Assembly (NCBI RefSeq): GCF_000246985.2
Contig: NC_022084.1
Span: forward strand, 825,246-889,245
Origin: Thermococcus litoralis DSM 5473
GTDB lineage: Archaea; Methanobacteriota_B; Thermococci; Thermococcales; Thermococcaceae
DNA: 64,000 nucleotides
Direction: 5' to 3'
In this document: positions 1 through 44,907 of the stretch, in pieces
How the letters are laid out: each line of letters begins with the position of its first letter
How positions within the stretch are numbered: the stretch's first letter is position 1
Notes under the pieces: generated by a model
Databases searched by the model: none
What the model saw: only the letters and a program-made list of their open reading frames with translations
What the model was told of the DNA's origin: nothing
Position numbers and translations under genes: made by a program

Positions 1-34
1 AGTCCCGCATGCTTGGCCGCTACACCACGGGGCT
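1..34 (-). tRNA. tRNA, 5' half only (probably tRNA-Gln)
   Basis: On the minus strand the sequence begins AGCCCCGTGGTGTAGC and ends at GCGGGACT. This gives a 7-base acceptor strand, a D-arm closing with GCAT, and the 5' side of the anticodon stem (CGGGA) plus C32 and U33. The anticodon lies just outside the window. A first base of A with this D-arm resembles archaeal tRNA-Gln, but tRNA-Glu cannot be excluded. An AT-rich TATA-like stretch (ATTTATAAATA, about 58-70) lies upstream in the right orientation. Confidence 0.8.
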
Positions 35-3590: not shown

Positions 3591-3639
3591 AAAATAAAAC
3601 TTAAATATTCTAAAATTTTACATAAATATGGTGATGCAA

Positions 3640-7292: not shown

Positions 7293-7335
7293 GATTATCA
7301 CCGGAAGATGTTTGAGAGAAGGATTTAAAAGTTTT

Positions 7336-7351
7336 ATCATTTTTATGTTCA
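7336..7351. promoter_or_regulatory. Shared purine box between purM and purT
   Basis: ATCATTTTTATGTTC is followed on the plus strand by an AAACTCTTAAATATT-type TATA region for purT. Read on the minus strand, the same palindrome (GAACATAAAAATGAT) is followed by an ACTTTTAAATCC TATA region for purM. One site appears to serve both divergent promoters. Confidence 0.6.
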
Positions 7352-7412
7352 AAAACTCTTAAATATTCCCAAAGTTTTAACATACAAACGTCAATAAATT
7401 TAGGTGATACCC

Positions 7413-8702
7413 ATGATAAGCATTAGAGATGAAATTGGAACCCCCCTAACTGATTCTGCTGTTAAAATTCTCCTTCTTGGGAGTGGCGAACTTGGAAAAG
7501 AGATAACCATAGAGGCCCAGAGATTAGGAATCGAGGTTATCGCAGTCGATCGATATCCAAATGCCCCCGCCATGCAGGTTGCTCACAAAAGCTACGTAGG
7601 CAATATGAAAGATAAGGACTTCCTCTGGAGCATTGTGGAGAGGGAAAAACCTGACGCAATAGTGCCGGAAATAGAGGCAATAAACCTTGATGCACTCTTT
7701 GAGATTGAAAAGGAAGGTTATTTTGTAGTACCAAATGCTAAAGCTACCTGGATAGCCATGCATAGAGAAAGAACTCGTGAGACCCTTGCAAAAGAAGCAA
7801 AGGTCCCAACATCTCGTTACGCATATGCAACAACCCTGGATGAGCTCTATGATGCATGTGAAAAGATAGGTTACCCCTGTCACACTAAGGCCATAATGAG
7901 CTCCAGTGGAAAAGGTTCTTACTTCGTTAAAGGGCCCGAAGATGTTCCTAAAGCGTGGGAAGTGGCAAAGAAAAAGGCAAGGGGAAGTGCTGATAAGATA
8001 ATCGTTGAGGAGCATATAGACTTTGATGTTGAGATTACCGAATTAGCGGTTAGGCACTTCGATGAGAACGGAAAAATTGTAACGACCTTCCCAAAGCCTG
8101 TTGGCCATTACCAAATTGAAGGAGATTACCACTCAAGCTGGCAGCCTGCAGAGATAAGTGAAAAGGCCGAGTGTGAGGTGTATAGAATAGCTAAACGCAT
8201 AACTGATGTTCTCGGAGGTCTTGGAATATTTGGTGTCGAGATGTTTGTTAAAGGAGACAAAGTATGGGCCAACGAAGTTTCTCCAAGACCCCACGACACT
8301 GGAATGGTAACCATGGCTTCCCATCCAACTGGTTTTTCTGAATTTGGACTCCACGTTAGAGCTGTGTTGGGCCTCCCGATTCCAGCTGTTGAGGAAAACG
8401 GCATCAGGAAGTTCCCGATTTTAACTCCTGCAGCAACTCACGTAATCCTTTCAAATCAAGAAGGTTATGCCCCAAAGTTTAGGAATATCTTCAAAGGCCT
8501 AAACGTACCAAATACAACAATAAGACTCTTCGGGAAGCCTGAAGCATACAAGGGGAGACGTCTTGGTGTGGCACTAGCATGGGACAAGGATGTAGAGGTT
8601 GCGAAGAGAAAAGCAGAAGCAGTCGCTCACATGATTGAGCTGAGAACAAGAAGCGGTGAATGGCAGAGTCAGGATTATGAAAAAAGAAAACATCTGCTTT
8701 AG
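7413..8702 (+). CDS. purT: Formate-dependent phosphoribosylglycinamide formyltransferase
   Basis: Converts GAR, formate and ATP to FGAR, the folate-free alternative to PurN. The 429-aa ATP-grasp protein has KILLLGSGELGKE, IEVIAVDRY, PEIEAI, MSSSGKGSYFV (ATP-grasp loop), VWANEVSPRPHDTGMVT and a C-terminal EVAKRKAEAVAH segment, all close to bacterial PurT. The start at 7413 follows GGTGATACCC; the in-frame GTG at 7404 lies inside the ribosome binding site. With PurP this makes both formyl-transfer steps of purine synthesis formate-dependent, which fits the lack of any purN or purH in the window. Confidence 0.95.
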   Translation: MISIRDEIGTPLTDSAVKILLLGSGELGKEITIEAQRLGIEVIAVDRYPNAPAMQVAHKSYVGNMKDKDFLWSIVEREKPDAIVPEIEAINLDALFEIEKEGYFVVPNAKATWIAMHRERTRETLAKEAKVPTSRYAYATTLDELYDACEKIGYPCHTKAIMSSSGKGSYFVKGPEDVPKAWEVAKKKARGSADKIIVEEHIDFDVEITELAVRHFDENGKIVTTFPKPVGHYQIEGDYHSSWQPAEISEKAECEVYRIAKRITDVLGGLGIFGVEMFVKGDKVWANEVSPRPHDTGMVTMASHPTGFSEFGLHVRAVLGLPIPAVEENGIRKFPILTPAATHVILSNQEGYAPKFRNIFKGLNVPNTTIRLFGKPEAYKGRRLGVALAWDKDVEVAKRKAEAVAHMIELRTRSGEWQSQDYEKRKHLL

Positions 8703-8726
8703 GCCCTTTAATTTTTAATGAGAATA

Positions 8727-9158
8727 TTAGGCCTTCATTTTCTCCCTGTACTCTTCAAGCTTTCTCCTCAAGCTTTCATCTTTCAATGCTAGGATTTCTA
8801 TCGCTAGCAATGCCGCGTTCTTTCCGTTATCAATTCCAACCGCAGCAACCGGCACGCCCGGAGGCATCTGGGCAATGCTCAGGAGAGCATCCAATCCGCC
8901 AAGCTTTGCCGAAACGGGGACTCCAATAACGGGTTTGGTTGTGTGAGAAGCTATAACGCCGGGTAAAGCAGCGCTTAATCCCGCTATGGCAATGAAAACA
9001 TCGTAGTCCTTCCTCGCAAGCTCCTCAACTTTTTTAGGGTTCCTGTGAGCTGAAGCCACTTCAACATCGTAACTAACTCCAAACTCATCAAACACCTTAG
9101 TGACTTTTTCCGCTATGTGTGAATCACTTTTGCTACCCATTACAACGAGCACCTTCAT
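8727..9158 (-). CDS. purE: N5-carboxyaminoimidazole ribonucleotide mutase (class I or II PurE)
   Basis: Moves the carboxyl group to make CAIR. The compact 143-aa product has the whole family core: [51 protein letters not shown], and [22 protein letters not shown]. No purK is seen in the window (the ATP-grasp gene next door is purT). Without PurK the enzyme could act as a direct AIR carboxylase (class II), but this cannot be settled from the sequence alone. It is divergent from purD across a shared purine box. Confidence 0.95.
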
Positions 9159-9204
9159 GCTATCACCACATTGTTCTCTGACTTTTTCCCTTTATAAATT
9201 TTGC

Positions 9205-9216
9205 CATTTTTATGTT
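9205..9216. promoter_or_regulatory. Shared purine box between purE and purD
   Basis: CATTTTTATGTT precedes AAGCTTAAAAATACC (TATA) toward purD. On the minus strand AACATAAAAATGGC precedes AATTTATAAAGGG (TATA) toward purE. This is the same arrangement as at purM/purT. Confidence 0.6.
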
Positions 9217-9265
9217 AAAACAAAGCTTAAAAATACCAAATTTTAACAAATTTATGGTGAAGCTC

Positions 9266-15771: not shown

Positions 15772-15772
15772 T

Positions 15773-15787
15773 TAACATTTTTATGCA
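15773..15787 (+). promoter_or_regulatory. Purine box upstream of purS
   Basis: TAACATTTTTATGCAT, followed by AAATAAACCTTAAAAACCC (BRE/TATA) and AAATTTTTACATTTTT. This layout is almost base-for-base the same upstream of purL and of the purP at 34164. Confidence 0.65.
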
Positions 15788-15841
15788 TAAATAAACCTTA
15801 AAAACCCTAAATTTTTACATTTTTTTGATAAGGTGATGCTC

Positions 15842-16087
15842 ATGAAGTGGAAAGCTAAGGTTGTAATCCGCTTAAAAGAAGGGCTTAACGATCCCGAGGG
15901 GAGAGTCATTGGAAAGGCCCTCAAAAACTTAGGCTATAAAGTTGAAGAGCTGAAGGTTCCAAAATATTTCGAGCTCATTTTTGAAAGCGAAGCTCCAGAG
16001 AAAGATGTCGAGGAGATGTGCAAACGCCTGCTTGCAAACCCAGTTATCCACACTTATGAATATCAAATCGAGCCTTTAGGTGAGTGA
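15842..16087 (+). CDS. purS: Phosphoribosylformylglycinamidine synthase, PurS subunit
   Basis: The small structural subunit that links PurQ and PurL in the three-part FGAM synthetase. The 81-aa product starts [14 protein letters not shown] and contains the family segment [16 protein letters not shown] and a C-terminal [14 protein letters not shown] at 15833 is in frame but overlaps GGTGAT. The stop codon is 1 base before the purQ ATG, so translation is coupled. Confidence 0.95.
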
Positions 16088-16088
16088 A

Positions 16089-16760
16089 ATGCCAAAGTTC
16101 GCTGTCATAGTATTCCCAGGGACAAACTGCGATTTTGAGACCGTTGAAGCAATTAAAAAAGCTGGTGGAAAAGCGGAGAGAGTCTGGTATAAGCAAAGCC
16201 TCAAAGACTTTGATGGCGTTGTTTTGCCCGGTGGATTCAGCTATGCCGATTATTTGAGAGCTGGCGCAATAAGTGCAAGGGCAGAGGTAATGGAGGAAAT
16301 TAAGGTTCTTGCCAACGAAGGCAAACCCGTTTTAGGCATTTGCAACGGCTTTCAAATCTTAACGGAGTCAGCTCTTCTGCCGGGAGCATTGAGACCAAAT
16401 AAGATTCCAAGCTTCCTATGCAAGTGGGTTTACCTTAAAGTTAGCGACACCTAAACAGCTTTTACCCAACTCTACAAAGAGGGAGAGGTCATTAGAATGC
16501 CAATAGCACATGCTGAAGGGAATTACTACTCCGAGAGCTTAGATAGCGTAAGGATAACCTTCCAGTACAGCGACGAGAAAGGAGAGATAACGGAAGATGC
16601 AAACCCCAACGGCTCTCTCTTGAACATAGCGGGAATAAGCAATGAAAAGGGCAACGTTCTCGGCATGATGCCTCATCCAGAGAGGGCGAGTGATAAATGG
16701 CTGGGAAGCGAGGACGGGTTGAGGATCTTCAAGAGCATGGTGGAATATGCCAAAAGATAG
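16089..16760 (+). pseudogene. purQ: FGAM synthase glutaminase subunit PurQ, interrupted by an in-frame TAA
   Basis: The glutaminase subunit that supplies ammonia to PurL. Reading from ATG 16089, the frame has [21 protein letters not shown] and the nucleophile motif [10 protein letters not shown], then runs into TAA at 16452-16454 after YLKVSDT. The same frame continues without a break as [25 protein letters not shown] and [13 protein letters not shown], so both halves together make one normal PurQ of about 223 residues. The stop occupies a position where relatives appear to carry a lysine codon, so a single A-to-T change (AAA to TAA) would explain it. The upstream piece alone lacks the catalytic His-Glu (HPE). 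Options are a true nonsense mutation, a sequencing error, or stop readthrough. An internal ATG at 16497 could start the second piece. Confidence 0.9.
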
Positions 16761-16984: not shown

Positions 16985-18259
16985 ATGAGGTATAGGGCAA
17001 TATTTGTTTTACTTTTAAGTTTATTAATGTTTGGAGGAGTGTTCAGCAATTCAGCATACGCAAAACCAAGCGTTATATCAAAAATCTCAGTGACTAAGTT
17101 TGTTTTAGGAATTTACGATCCAAATCCAATTATGAGCGATGACTTAAGAGACGCTAGAAATACATTCGCCATTTTGAGGATACAGGGCAATAAGTTGAGT
17201 GGCTTTTTGTTCTATGACTGGAAGCTTAAAAGAATAAGTAAAAACATCAGGATTGTTGAGTCTGAGTACTTTGACGGTTATGTTATTCTATTTGACTCAA
17301 AGGACACAAAAAATAGTATTATAGGACTACAGGGCAATATATACAAGAACGGGACGGTGTGGATATTTCTGCAGGAAATTGGCAAGAAGGATCTTATAGC
17401 ATTGTCTTTTGAGGATAAGCAATTAGTAGAAAAACTCCTAAAAATGAAATTACCAAAAGAGAGAATAGATGATATAAGCTGGTCATTTAAAATTGTACCT
17501 CCCAAGATAAACATTCGTGAAATCGCCTCCAGCAGAGAGATTATCTTAATGGGAGGGGTTCAGCAAAGATGCTCTTATAGCACTAAAGCAGTGTATATAA
17601 CATCTTCATGGCCAACAAACTCACCCACAACGTACTATATTAAAGTACAGGCTAAGTTCTGTGGTCCAACAATTCTAAAAAGTACAGACGAATACAAGGT
17701 AATTGTTAAAAATTTAGATGAGGGAAGGATTGTATCCTACGGTACAAGTTATCGAGAAGTTAGTGGGGATACTGCATTTGAAATTCGGGGATCTTCTTCT
17801 CGGCCAATAGATATAAAGGTAACGGTACCTTACAAGGATAGCCCCAATGAAATACAAGATTTAATAATCAGGGTGTCGGGTAGTATCGTTAACTTTGGAT
17901 ATAATGAAGTTAGTTGGGCCATTAAATGGGCGGCTGATTTAATAACATGGGCACTTAATCTTCCGCCAATACCCACTAAAGCAACACAAGGCCCAACTTT
18001 TCCTCCAATAATTATTGAAGGTGGAGAAGAGAAGAATACCCTAGCCGTAGCATACAATAATTTGAATATTGGTGTTCCTGGACAGTTCTTGCAAATAGAG
18101 GGTATTGTCATCCGATACAATAAGGGCCCTTCATATGACATTACAAAAAAGTTTTATGCACTATACAACATACCGATATACTATGGTTCGTCTTCAAATC
18201 CCAGTCATGTAGCTGATGTAGAGACTCAATGCAGTTTAAGGGTTATCCACACTAACTAA
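16985..18259 (+). CDS. Secreted protein of unknown function
   Basis: A 424-aa protein with a clear signal peptide: a hydrophobic run FVLLLSLLMFGGVF, then a likely cleavage after SAYA (near residue 26). The rest is rich in beta-type, polar segments with four or more cysteines (QQRCSYS, KFCGP, ETQCSL) and no family I recognise. GGAGG lies 9 bases before ATG. It is followed after 14 bp by another envelope protein. The pair sits between purQ and purL, genes that act together, so it looks like an insertion; its base composition is more AT-rich than the flanking pur genes. Confidence 0.7.
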   Translation: MRYRAIFVLLLSLLMFGGVFSNSAYAKPSVISKISVTKFVLGIYDPNPIMSDDLRDARNTFAILRIQGNKLSGFLFYDWKLKRISKNIRIVESEYFDGYVILFDSKDTKNSIIGLQGNIYKNGTVWIFLQEIGKKDLIALSFEDKQLVEKLLKMKLPKERIDDISWSFKIVPPKINIREIASSREIILMGGVQQRCSYSTKAVYITSSWPTNSPTTYYIKVQAKFCGPTILKSTDEYKVIVKNLDEGRIVSYGTSYREVSGDTAFEIRGSSSRPIDIKVTVPYKDSPNEIQDLIIRVSGSIVNFGYNEVSWAIKWAADLITWALNLPPIPTKATQGPTFPPIIIEGGEEKNTLAVAYNNLNIGVPGQFLQIEGIVIRYNKGPSYDITKKFYALYNIPIYYGSSSNPSHVADVETQCSLRVIHTN

Positions 18260-18273
18260 AGGGGTGAGTCTCA

Positions 18274-18852
18274 ATGAATCTCAAAGATTTCCTTCCCATT
18301 CTTGCTCTTTTACTTTTGTTTGGGGTCTTTTATGGAGTAATGGAACATAAATGCACAATTAGAGTATCTGAAGAAGTAAATAAAGCTGTGGAAAAAGTGG
18401 AGAAGGGAGACATTGTTATGGATATTGAGCTCCACACAACCGAGCTCCGAAAGAACTCAGAGCGAGCTCTTGCATGTCTCAACGCTAGCAAGTGTTCAAA
18501 AGCTACACTGATAGGATATCTCATGAAAGCCTCATTTCACATGGAAATGTTGCACTCCTACTACAGTAGAGCTGTCACTTCTATCCTTAGGCCTGGTGAG
18601 GAAATCGAACCCTACATCAATACCACTACACTGGATTGCGCGAAAATGTTAGAGGGGTTTGCTACAATAATAATCGAGGACAACATAACTGAGAGACAGC
18701 TCAAAATTATGAGAAGAGCACTGATAGACGTTAACAAATTTGCGAACAATACACTCAAAATTAACAATATCACCTTAATCCTGCAGGAGAATGGAAAAAT
18801 ACAAGAAAAGTGCCGAGCCTACCTAGTAGCGTTTAACAATACTACAAGGTGA
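18274..18852 (+). CDS. Membrane-anchored extracytoplasmic protein of unknown function
   Basis: A 192-aa product with one N-terminal hydrophobic segment (FLPILALLLLFGVFYGV, residues 6-22), then a polar, mainly helical domain with paired cysteines (ACLNASKCSK) and several N-x-T/S sites that archaeal surface proteins often glycosylate. No family recognised. GGGGTGAG precedes the ATG. It probably forms a unit with the secreted protein upstream. Confidence 0.65.
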   Translation: MNLKDFLPILALLLLFGVFYGVMEHKCTIRVSEEVNKAVEKVEKGDIVMDIELHTTELRKNSERALACLNASKCSKATLIGYLMKASFHMEMLHSYYSRAVTSILRPGEEIEPYINTTTLDCAKMLEGFATIIIEDNITERQLKIMRRALIDVNKFANNTLKINNITLILQENGKIQEKCRAYLVAFNNTTR

Positions 18853-18891
18853 GTGTTTTTCTTTTTCTGAAACTTCTCGCAGAGAGTTTTT

Positions 18892-18905
18892 AACATTTTT
18901 ATGTA
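18892..18905 (+). promoter_or_regulatory. Purine box upstream of purL
   Basis: AACATTTTTATGTAT followed by AAATAAACCTTAAAAACTCC (TATA). This gives purL its own promoter even though it is separated from purSQ by the inserted pair. Confidence 0.65.
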
Positions 18906-18965
18906 TAAATAAACCTTAAAAACTCCAAATTTTTACATTTTTCTGGTAATAAAGGAGGTGTCAGG

Positions 18966-21104
18966 ATGTTTCCTCACGAAGAAGAGATCATCCGTGAAAG
19001 GCTCGGTAGAGAGCCGAACGAAGTTGAAAAATCCATGCTTGAGGTAATGTGGAGCGAGCATGCATCATACAAATCAAGCAGAAAGTGGCTCAAACTTTTA
19101 CCCACGAGGAACGAGCACGTTATTTTAGGCCCTGGGGAAGACGCAGGCGTTGTAAAATTTGATGAGAACACGGCGGTAGTTGTCGGAATAGAAAGTCACA
19201 ACCATCCAAGCGCTGTTGAGCCCTATGGTGGAGCAGCCACAGGCGTTGGAGGGATTGTTAGGGATATACTCTGTATGGGAGCAAGACCTATAGCTCTGCT
19301 CGATCCCATACGCTTTGGCCCCTTAGAGAAGGAGCGCAACAAGTACCTTTTTGAGTACGTGGTTAAGGGAATAGCCGATTATGGCAATAGAATAGGCGTT
19401 CCTACTGTTGGTGGCGAGACAGAGTTCGATGAAAGTCTTGACAGCTACACACTAGTCAACGTTGCCTGTATTGGTTTAATGAGACCCGAAGAGCTGGTGC
19501 ACAGCTATGTTGAGGAGAGCGGCCTTTTGCTTGTTTTGGTTGGTAACAAAACAGGAAGGGATGGGATCCATGGCGTAACATTTGCAAGCGAAGAGCTGAG
19601 TGAGAACGCAGAAGAGGAAGATCGCTCTGCAGTGCAAATTCCCGATCCGTTTACAGAGAAGCTTTTGATTGAAGCAACACTTGAGGCCCTTGCAACCGGA
19701 AAAGTCAAGGCCCTTAAAGACCTCGGTGGTGGGGGCTTAACTTGCGCCTCCTCGGAGATGGCCGGAAAGAAAGGGCTTGGAGCGATAATCTACGCAGACA
19801 GAGTGCCCCAAAGAGAGCCAAATATGACCCCAATGGAAGTTATGATTTCCGAGAGCCAGGAAAGAATGCTCTTCGCTATTAAGAGGGAAGATCTGGAAGA
19901 GATAACAAAGATTTTTGAGAAGTATGAGCTTGAGTGGACTACTGTCGGTGAGATTATAAAAGAGCCTAGGTATATCGTCTACTGGAATGGTGAAAAGGTC
20001 GCCGACCTGCCCATAGATCTCCTCACGGAAGTGCCAACAATAGAGTGGGAAGCAAAGCCCTACAACATTGAGAGAGATGTTGAGACGCCTGAAATAGGGC
20101 TCGAAGAGGCTTTCCTTAAAGTGCTCTCAAGCCCCAACATAGTAAGCAAGGAGTGGATATGGCAGCAGTATGATCATGAGGTTCAAGGAAGGGCGGTTCT
20201 AAAGCCCGGAAAGGACGCAGCGGTGCTAAAAATAAACGACGAATACGGCTTGGCTTTTGTTAGCGATGGAAACCCGTCTCACAGCTACCTGAACCCATAT
20301 CACGGAGCTATGGGTGCTGTTGCCGAAGTCGTTAGGAACTTAGCTAGTGTAGGGGCAAGACCTTTGGCCTTGGTTGACAACCTGAACTTTGCCTCTCCTG
20401 AAAGACCTGAGGTTTATTGGAGCTTCATAGAGACCATTAAAGGATTGGCCGATGCGGCAAAGGCCTTTGGATTAGCATATGTAAGCGGGAATGTGAGTTT
20501 TTACAATGAGGTGGGCAATAAGCCTATAAAACCGACCCCCGTGGTTGCCGGATTGGGAAAAGTAAGGCTCGAAAACATTACAACAATGGATTTCAAAGAT
20601 GAGGGAGACCTTATAGCCATTGTTGGGGTTACGAAGAAAGAGCTTGGAGGGAGCGAGCTCTACCGGGTTTTAAACATTGAAGGTGGGTTTGCGCCAAGAG
20701 TTAAGCTAGAGAGAGAAAAAAGAAATGCTGGGGGAATTTTAAAAGCAATAGAGCTTAGATTGCTAAAGGCTGTTCACGACGTTAGCAAGGGAGGAATAGC
20801 TGTAGCACTTGCGGAAATGGCACTAAGCGGCAACATTGGATTTGAGGTGGACATAAGTAAGGTTCCAGTCGAAGAAAAACTCAATCCAGTGGAGGTTATG
20901 TTCTCGGAGAGCCATGGTAGATTTATAATAAGCTTTGAAGAAAAAGACCTCGAAAAGGTCGAAGCCCTCTTCGATGAATTTGCAGTAATTGGAAGGGTTA
21001 GAGGGGAGAAGCTTGTCTTCAGATGCGGAGAGGAACACATCTCTATTGATTTAGAGAAAGTCAGAGAGCTTTACAACTCACTTCCAAAGCTTCTTGGGGA
21101 ATAG
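18966..21104 (+). CDS. purL: Phosphoribosylformylglycinamidine synthase, PurL subunit
   Basis: The large synthetase subunit: FGAR, ATP and ammonia to FGAM. The 712-aa length is that of the small-PurL type that works with separate PurS and PurQ. Visible motifs are MWSEHASYKSSR, GPGEDAGVVKF, ESHNHPSAVEPYGGAATGVGGI, DLGGGGLTCASSEMA, SDGNPSHSYLNPYHG, VHDVSKGGIAVALAEMA and SESHGRF. The ribosome binding site is AAAGGAGGTG. Since its partner purQ carries a nonsense codon, the complex might have to use free ammonia unless PurQ is made by readthrough. Confidence 0.95.
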   Translation: MFPHEEEIIRERLGREPNEVEKSMLEVMWSEHASYKSSRKWLKLLPTRNEHVILGPGEDAGVVKFDENTAVVVGIESHNHPSAVEPYGGAATGVGGIVRDILCMGARPIALLDPIRFGPLEKERNKYLFEYVVKGIADYGNRIGVPTVGGETEFDESLDSYTLVNVACIGLMRPEELVHSYVEESGLLLVLVGNKTGRDGIHGVTFASEELSENAEEEDRSAVQIPDPFTEKLLIEATLEALATGKVKALKDLGGGGLTCASSEMAGKKGLGAIIYADRVPQREPNMTPMEVMISESQERMLFAIKREDLEEITKIFEKYELEWTTVGEIIKEPRYIVYWNGEKVADLPIDLLTEVPTIEWEAKPYNIERDVETPEIGLEEAFLKVLSSPNIVSKEWIWQQYDHEVQGRAVLKPGKDAAVLKINDEYGLAFVSDGNPSHSYLNPYHGAMGAVAEVVRNLASVGARPLALVDNLNFASPERPEVYWSFIETIKGLADAAKAFGLAYVSGNVSFYNEVGNKPIKPTPVVAGLGKVRLENITTMDFKDEGDLIAIVGVTKKELGGSELYRVLNIEGGFAPRVKLEREKRNAGGILKAIELRLLKAVHDVSKGGIAVALAEMALSGNIGFEVDISKVPVEEKLNPVEVMFSESHGRFIISFEEKDLEKVEALFDEFAVIGRVRGEKLVFRCGEEHISIDLEKVRELYNSLPKLLGE

Positions 21105-34096: not shown

Positions 34097-34101
34097 TTTT
34101 T

Positions 34102-35165
<1,064 letters not shown>

Positions 35166-43898: not shown

Positions 43899-44186
43899 AT
43901 GGGGTATACTATTTACTACCACATACACATTAGAAAGCCTAAAAAAGCCGCAGAGTTTATTGAGATAGTTTGCAAAGGGCTTGGGTGGGATTTTGATGTC
44001 AGAGAGGGGGAAATAATCATATTCCCCCCAGAAGAGAAAGTAGAGCCCCTTGTGATTAAAGATGGAAAGGGGTCCGCGAAAACTTACAAAAAAGAACCTT
44101 ACACAACGATTTATTTACTGCTACTGCTCTCACTCTCGGCCTTTGGCTCCGTTGATGTTTCCGATGATGGGGGCTTTGCTTTATGA
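43899..44186 (+). CDS. Small conserved protein of unknown function, perhaps truncated
   Basis: A 95-aa product starting MGYTIYYHIHIRKPKKA behind GGGTGAGAAAC. It contains EIVCKGLGWDF and a C-terminal YLLLLLSLSAFGSVDVSDD. I associate this layout with a small Thermococcales protein family of unknown role, whose members may be longer. Its last 76 bp overlap the convergent DUF2101 gene, so the 3' end may be truncated or fused by a deletion. Confidence 0.55.
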   Translation: MGYTIYYHIHIRKPKKAAEFIEIVCKGLGWDFDVREGEIIIFPPEEKVEPLVIKDGKGSAKTYKKEPYTTIYLLLLLSLSAFGSVDVSDDGGFAL

Positions 44187-44897
44187 ACCTCTAGGATCCT
44201 TTTTGGGATAGAGCTCCTGAATATCCTCTCCTCCACGAGGACTTTCACTATATCGCCCACTTCAACATCTTCCGCGCTTTCGACCCAGTACTTACCGGGC
44301 TTAACGTTGGCCCTTATGTCATCGTGGACATCTATCCTTACAAGTTCGCCTTTGACTTCTTCCACAACCCCATAAGTCCAGTCTCTGGTGAACTTTGATT
44401 TATAGAGGTATCTAAACCCCAGCACAGCTATAAAGATAATCACCAGGTAGGCATAAAAATAGTAGACGTTCTTTGCGAGCTTTCTCACCAAGAGATATCC
44501 AAGAAAGGACAAAAAGCCGATTACCGTTAGTCCGTAATAAAAGAACCTGTAAGGCTCGACCTCAATAAAGAATTCTCGATTTTTTAAGATGATGTATCTC
44601 AGATAAGCGAAATAAAGGGCAAAAAGCAGAGCAAGGTAAAGCTCACTTCCAAAGAGGACTAGGAGGAAGGACAATATGAGATAATACGATAAAGGAAAGC
44701 TGAATGCTCAAGCTTAAGAGCTCATGGGCTGTGAGTTCCCTCTTTATTAGCTTCCTGAGGAGTTTGAACTTGGGTGGAGTTTTTGATGGAGTGGGTTTGA
44801 TTATCTCATCTAGGATTCTTTTTGTCCACTTTGCTGATTTCACGGCGAAGGATTCGGCTGCTTCACCCAATTTGTAGAGGATTTCATCAAGGCTCAT
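44111..44897 (-). pseudogene. DUF2101-like membrane protein gene, frameshifted
   Basis: Two frames make one protein. The N-terminal part (ATG 44897 behind GGTGAAAATC) encodes MSLDEILYKLGEAAESF... to LSIQLSFIVLSHIVL, then switches to a dead frame. The second frame picks up at about 44674 with SFLLVLFGSELYLALLFALYF, three more membrane segments and a C-terminal beta-rich domain (YGVVEEVKGELVRIDVHDDI) with a Ser/Glu-rich tail. The frames overlap at 44643-44674, so a single-base indel near there explains the break. The intact length would be about 260 aa, typical of the Thermococcales membrane family DUF2101. It is the last gene of the pilin/CetZ operon. A sequencing error is possible. Confidence 0.75.
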
Positions 44898-44907
44898 GAT
44901 TTTCACC

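Follow-up and report, generated by a model that had tools for sequence, protein, structure and literature searches.

The purQ gene of Thermococcus litoralis DSM 5473 is divided by a stop codon, and this raises the question of whether the stop is a true mutation of the strain, an error of the public sequence, or a codon that the cell circumvents in some way. The locus lies in the window, the whole stretch of 64,000 nucleotides that was analysed (825,246–889,245 of NC_022084.1, a single contig of 2,215,172 bases). We put the probability at roughly 0.6 that the stop is a genuine and recent nonsense mutation of DSM 5473, a C-to-T change that converts Gln122 of its single purQ to a stop. The mechanism would be an ordinary one, a known type of event rather than a new one. 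The relevant features, all on the + strand and in window coordinates, are as follows.

15772..15831, +, 60-bp element upstream of purS, also found upstream of other pur genes (shared sequence)
15848..16087, +, purS, the upstream partner, intact (family match)
16089..16454, +, 5′ part of purQ up to the premature TAA, residues 1–121 including the nucleophile Cys85 (translation, family matches, alignment)
16452..16454, +, premature stop TAA, codon 122 (the three closest relatives have CAA, Gln; the others read have CAA, GAA, GAG, AAC, AAT or GGG)
16455..16760, +, remainder of the purQ frame, residues 123–223 with His196 and Glu198, and the natural stop (translation, relatives)
16480..16492, +, Shine-Dalgarno-like stretch preceding ATG 16497 (duplex of −10.0 kcal/mol over the 20 upstream bases, calculated with an assumed anti-Shine-Dalgarno sequence)
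16497..16760, +, 87-aa ORF from Met137, a possible restart product with His196 and Glu198 (ORF, family match)
18966..21104, +, purL, the synthetase subunit, intact (family match)

The purQ frame and its relatives

Positions 16089–16760 constitute one 224-codon frame: 121 residues, TAA, 101 residues and the natural stop. In translation, the TAA at 16452–16454 is codon 122 of an otherwise open 223-codon purQ. Three residues, Cys85 (the nucleophile) and His196 and Glu198 (the rest of the catalytic triad), are invariant across the intact PurQ relatives in the alignment, and the stop sits between the first and the other two, so that the triad does not occur in one chain. An earlier note, made from the sequence alone, had described just this arrangement, with the Cys upstream of the TAA and the His-Glu downstream within a single frame, and translation and alignment bear it out. 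Residues 1–121 and residues 137–223 both hit the PurQ families NF002957 and TIGR01737 without reaching the cut-offs set for the whole protein: the first piece scores 170.3 bits (cut-off 212) and 167.7 bits (cut-off 177.8), respectively, and the second piece 93.2 and 108.5 bits. Accordingly, no single protein reaches the curated family cut-off by which a functional PurQ would be recognized.

The locus resembles the known PurS-PurQ-PurL type of FGAM synthetase (TIGR01737/NF002957; Thermotoga maritima PurLQS, PDB 3D54) in that both pieces match the family, the triad residues are present in the frame, and purQ is linked to its partners, purS lying just upstream and purL 2.2 kb downstream. The PurQ of an intact relative (L004) matches chain D of 3D54 by sequence and by predicted fold. 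The difference is that the T. litoralis frame is broken by one stop at codon 122. A search of the DSM 5473 genome with the first piece found no second purQ; the two other matches were rejected as such, one being PdxT and the other a PfpI-type deglycase.

For comparison, we used 30 other Thermococcaceae purQ copies (L004–L033) from 29 genomes, L033 being identical to L007. All 30 are open across codon 122, with a frame length of 222–223 codons, and the codon there is CAA in 15, GAA in 6, AAC in 4, AAT in 2, GAG in 2 and GGG in 1. The three closest copies (L004–L006) have 223 codons and CAA at this position, and are 98% identical in the first piece. Since these relatives have CAA, the smallest change giving the stop is, judging from the alignment, C to T (CAA to TAA). 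The proposal that reads might show an A/T mixture, with AAA as the intact codon, is thus wrong in detail: a C/T alternative is the one to look for. An uninterrupted, CAA-bearing purQ is found in the genomes G075, G077 and G081, and in G075 and G081 it is flanked by purS and purL, as in T. litoralis.

We also searched 94 genomes of the family with the C-terminal purQ piece (E ≤ 1e-10), purL (E ≤ 1e-100) and purD (E ≤ 1e-60). The purQ piece was matched in 77 of the 94 genomes and purL in the same 77, the same 17 being without both. In the good-quality subset (74 genomes with completeness of 90% or more and contamination of no more than 5%), purL, purQ and purD occur together in the same 69 genomes, and all three are absent in the same 5 (G020, G026, G058, G059 and G087). 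Among the less complete genomes, purD was found without purL and purQ in G003, G036 and G051, and was missing in the presence of purL and purQ in G064; these mismatches are what incomplete assemblies would give. The other C-terminal piece matches listed lie in open frames of at least 224 codons, except that G010 has, close to the start of a contig, a second match of 96 codons. None of the other family genomes among the 77 with purL keeps purL together with an interrupted purQ. Hence, purQ is retained whenever purL is, and among the genomes searched, the lone interrupted purQ is seen only in T. litoralis DSM 5473. FGAM synthesis on ammonia alone as a habit of the family was rejected: none of the 94 genomes has purL without purQ, and no relative offers a parallel for a strain that lives on ammonia.

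Absence of purine synthesis itself has been described in the Thermococcales: according to an excerpt of PMC3261824, the whole pathway is absent in Thermococcus onnurineus. A loss of purQ in T. litoralis would be similar in that it, too, would give dependence on salvage. It differs in that the genes are lost there as a set (5 of the 74 good genomes), whereas in T. litoralis one gene is hit by one stop.

Age of the stop and standing of the called base

Relative to all three sisters, the changes private to T. litoralis are few: 5 synonymous and 1 nonsynonymous codons before the stop, and 7 synonymous and 2 nonsynonymous codons after it. If changes were free of constraint, about 79% of those after the stop would be expected to be nonsynonymous, and the probability of finding two or fewer among nine is about 4e-4. 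One of the two nonsynonymous changes is Val154, the commonest residue in the outgroups, which may be ancestral rather than private. Relative to L004 and L006, the region after the stop gives dN of 0.008 and dS of 0.22–0.24, and relative to L005, 0.034 and 0.381, respectively; relaxed evolution is not seen in this region. The post-stop part of purQ was thus under purifying constraint until recently, and the 2:7 ratio means either that the stop arose a short time ago or that the sequence beyond it still has a use. These constrained changes led us to reject an old stop that has drifted ever since T. litoralis diverged from the sisters; a recent stop is compatible with them. Nonsense pseudogenes specific to type or laboratory strains are a familiar kind of event, and the present case is like them in being a single substitution in a gene whose remainder was constrained until recently and whose close relatives are intact. 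It differs in that the stop hits a single step of a pathway of which the other examined genes are open.

The chief rival of a young nonsense mutation is that the public genome has a wrong T here, through base calling, cloning or assembly, and that purQ is intact in the living strain; we regard this as a serious but clearly less probable explanation. It would account for the apparent constraint on the remainder of purQ and on the other pur genes, and for the lack of a broken purQ in every other searched family genome with purL. The published sequence also has unresolved bases, as stated in an excerpt of PMC9897764, which lists tRNA genes of DSM 5473 (NC_022084.1) with an N, two of them at 648,439–648,526 and 825,204–825,279. 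We confirmed an N in the assembly at both places, and counted nine single Ns in 384 kb around the window. None of them lies within the window, which contains no ambiguous bases at all; the T of codon 122 is called as a plain base and is outside any long homopolymer, which speaks against an error. If an N marks a position of mixed reads, the purQ T was called without ambiguity. Furthermore, purQ is a single-copy gene, so that a mix-up of paralogues, as inferred for the tRNA genes with N, is impossible here.

The frequency of comparable interruptions also bears on this rival. When 231 ORFs (at least 100 aa) of the relative G077 were mapped to the 384 kb, 165 were mapped and 66 were not. Thirteen of the 165 were flagged as interrupted and were still counted among the 165. 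A repeated 125-aa ORF, four copies of which share a single target, accounts for four of the 13; six more are disrupted only in about the first 50 residues, one of them (80% identity) with stops at residues 39 and 41, and these six, two of which were inspected, were taken for over-extended starts. In the remaining three, the interruption is in mid-gene: purQ has a lone stop, the orthologue of a 504-aa protein lacks a base in an A run, and that of a 264-aa protein has a frameshift. The second lies at about 680,470–681,970 of the genome (L114), and the third at 44111–44906 of the window, where the frameshift leaves ORFs of 87 and 187 aa. Thus, mid-gene frameshifts were found in 2 of the 164 other mapped orthologues, one of them in an A run, which is in favor of an error; a lone mid-gene stop was found in none of the 164, which argues against it, since errors or decay of this type must then be rare in the 384 kb. 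In the reverse control, 163 of 351 ORFs of the T. litoralis genome found a place in G077. Eight of the 163 were flagged; in one of these, the G077 sequence has an apparent lone stop at residue 76 of 675. Lone stops are therefore rare, but may not be unique to the T. litoralis genome. Taken together, the mapping and the N pattern favor a real base, short of proof.

Possible restart, split enzyme or readthrough

A second alternative, which we consider improbable, is a two-piece PurQ, in which translation stops at 16452 and restarts at ATG 16497, and the resulting pieces of 121 and 87 residues form a working glutaminase. The ATG is 42 bases past the stop, and its predicted Shine-Dalgarno duplex (−10.0 kcal/mol) is stronger than that at purQ's own start (−8.3 kcal/mol). 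A pattern for the 16S tail had no match in the T. litoralis genome, and an anti-Shine-Dalgarno sequence was therefore assumed for these scores. Only 4.4% of 1810 internal in-frame ATGs have a duplex as good or better, while an equally strong or stronger duplex is found at 35% of 293 ORF starts, taken mechanically as first ATGs. In the predicted L004 PurQ structure (mean pLDDT 92.0), residues 119–133 form the loop between the strands 110–118 and 134–141, and the post-stop part is conserved, both of which are consistent with a restart. However, the same score is obtained in three sisters with an unbroken purQ, and better ones in six further relatives with an unbroken purQ (L021, L022, L026, L029, L031 and L032), which indicates that the site is not selected for restart. 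In addition, a start at Met137 would remove three residues of the strand 134–141, and no further interrupted purQ was seen in the family. On this reading, PurQ would be a split class I glutamine amidotransferase, divided within the loop that separates strands 110–118 and 134–141, with extreme protein stability and PurL/PurS keeping the two parts together; we give it little credence. On the structural model, a split PurQ is mechanically conceivable yet unlikely.

The weakest alternative, and a highly improbable one, is readthrough of the stop, for example by a glutamine tRNA yielding full-length PurQ: the constraint downstream and the glutamine codon of the nearest relatives would suit it, but UAA is a tight stop, the known cases of archaeal recoding use UAG or UGA, purQ has the sole lone mid-gene stop among the 165 mapped orthologues (on which basis stop-codon reassignment and habitual readthrough were rejected), and the one odd tRNA-Gln looks like an assembly ambiguity. 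This tRNA-Gln gene (genome 825,204–825,279, ending in window positions 1–34) has an N at the anticodon and an extra loop base relative to two sisters; these oddities probably reflect ambiguity between glutamine isoacceptors in the assembly, and a suppressor tRNA-Gln was rejected on this reading. Of the three options that the earlier note had left side by side, a recent true loss is thus favored by the comparison, error stays beside it, and readthrough finds little support.

The purine pathway and its setting

If the nonsense mutation is real and recent, the truncated product would keep the cysteine of the glutaminase triad but lose its histidine and glutamate, and without these it would be unable to pass glutamine-derived ammonia to PurL/PurS. 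The strain would then depend on salvaged purines, or on high free ammonia if PurL-PurS can use ammonia. The mutation would be young and would have arisen in a type strain grown on purine-containing media.

The other examined genes of the pathway are open in T. litoralis: purF, purC, purM, purB, purT, purD, purS and purL, together with purE and the second purP, which score above their family cut-offs, and the first purP, which scores below those of its families. The claim that all other IMP synthesis genes appear intact holds for these. Several of them (purS, purL, purD, purT, purF and others) look constrained in comparison with the relatives. This counts against a loss, since such constraint is what would be expected if the pathway works.

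As for the supply of purines, the genome encodes two members of the xanthine/uracil permease family and has seven places with a phosphoribosyltransferase domain, one of which is purF and six of which are others; from these candidates, purine uptake and salvage are plausible. The work of Rinker and Kelly in 1996 reportedly had adenine and uracil in its defined medium, which is not part of the evidence used here. An excerpt of PMC2432063 states that the strain is kept in complex medium and that its defined medium contains 10 mg/l adenine. Adenine in the medium shows that purine is supplied, not that it is needed. Among the literature matches listed, none described a stop in purQ or a purine-auxotrophic T. 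litoralis, as judged from titles and the beginnings of abstracts.

Several observations concern the surroundings of purQ. A conserved element of about 30–70 bp (TTAACATTTTTATG...AAATAAACCTTAAAAA...CCAAATTTTTACA) is shared by the regions upstream of purC, purT, purD, purS, purL and the second purP (window 3592–3623, 7332–7383, 9199–9258, 15772–15831, 18890–18949 and 34097–34169). It is a candidate for a shared promoter/operator of a purine regulon, and its copy at 15772..15831 is likely to be the promoter of the purS-purQ unit; purL carries its own copy of this purS upstream element. A literature search on the purine regulon found no description of the element in titles and the beginnings of abstracts.

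The gap between purQ and purL is an insertion hot spot (window 16985–18852; L156 13079–13799; L157 9318–10038; L139 758–2417). In T. litoralis, it contains genes for proteins of 424 and 192 aa without a Pfam match; in G075, a pair of ribbon-helix-helix and PemK/MazF-like genes according to Pfam; in G081 and G077, the same pair by sequence likeness, with apparent insertion-sequence ORFs inside in G077; and in G074, nothing. The purL frame of G075 (L156 13969–16062 and beyond) diverges near its end, with a TAG after residue 695, as compared with 712 residues in T. litoralis. A second FGAM synthetase gene would thus be altered in a close relative; this assembly is a draft, and the change may be an error. 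Finally, at window 7404–9158, purE has a dS of 0.01 to G081 and the adjacent purT a dS of 1.07, and this mosaic relatedness suggests recombination between strains within the pur cluster.

What the stop means for the organism depends on the base at codon 122. An error would call for a correction of the reference genome. With a real stop, a hyperthermophile in wide use can be expected to have a type strain that is covertly auxotrophic for purines or dependent on ammonia, and the design of media and metabolic models would be affected.
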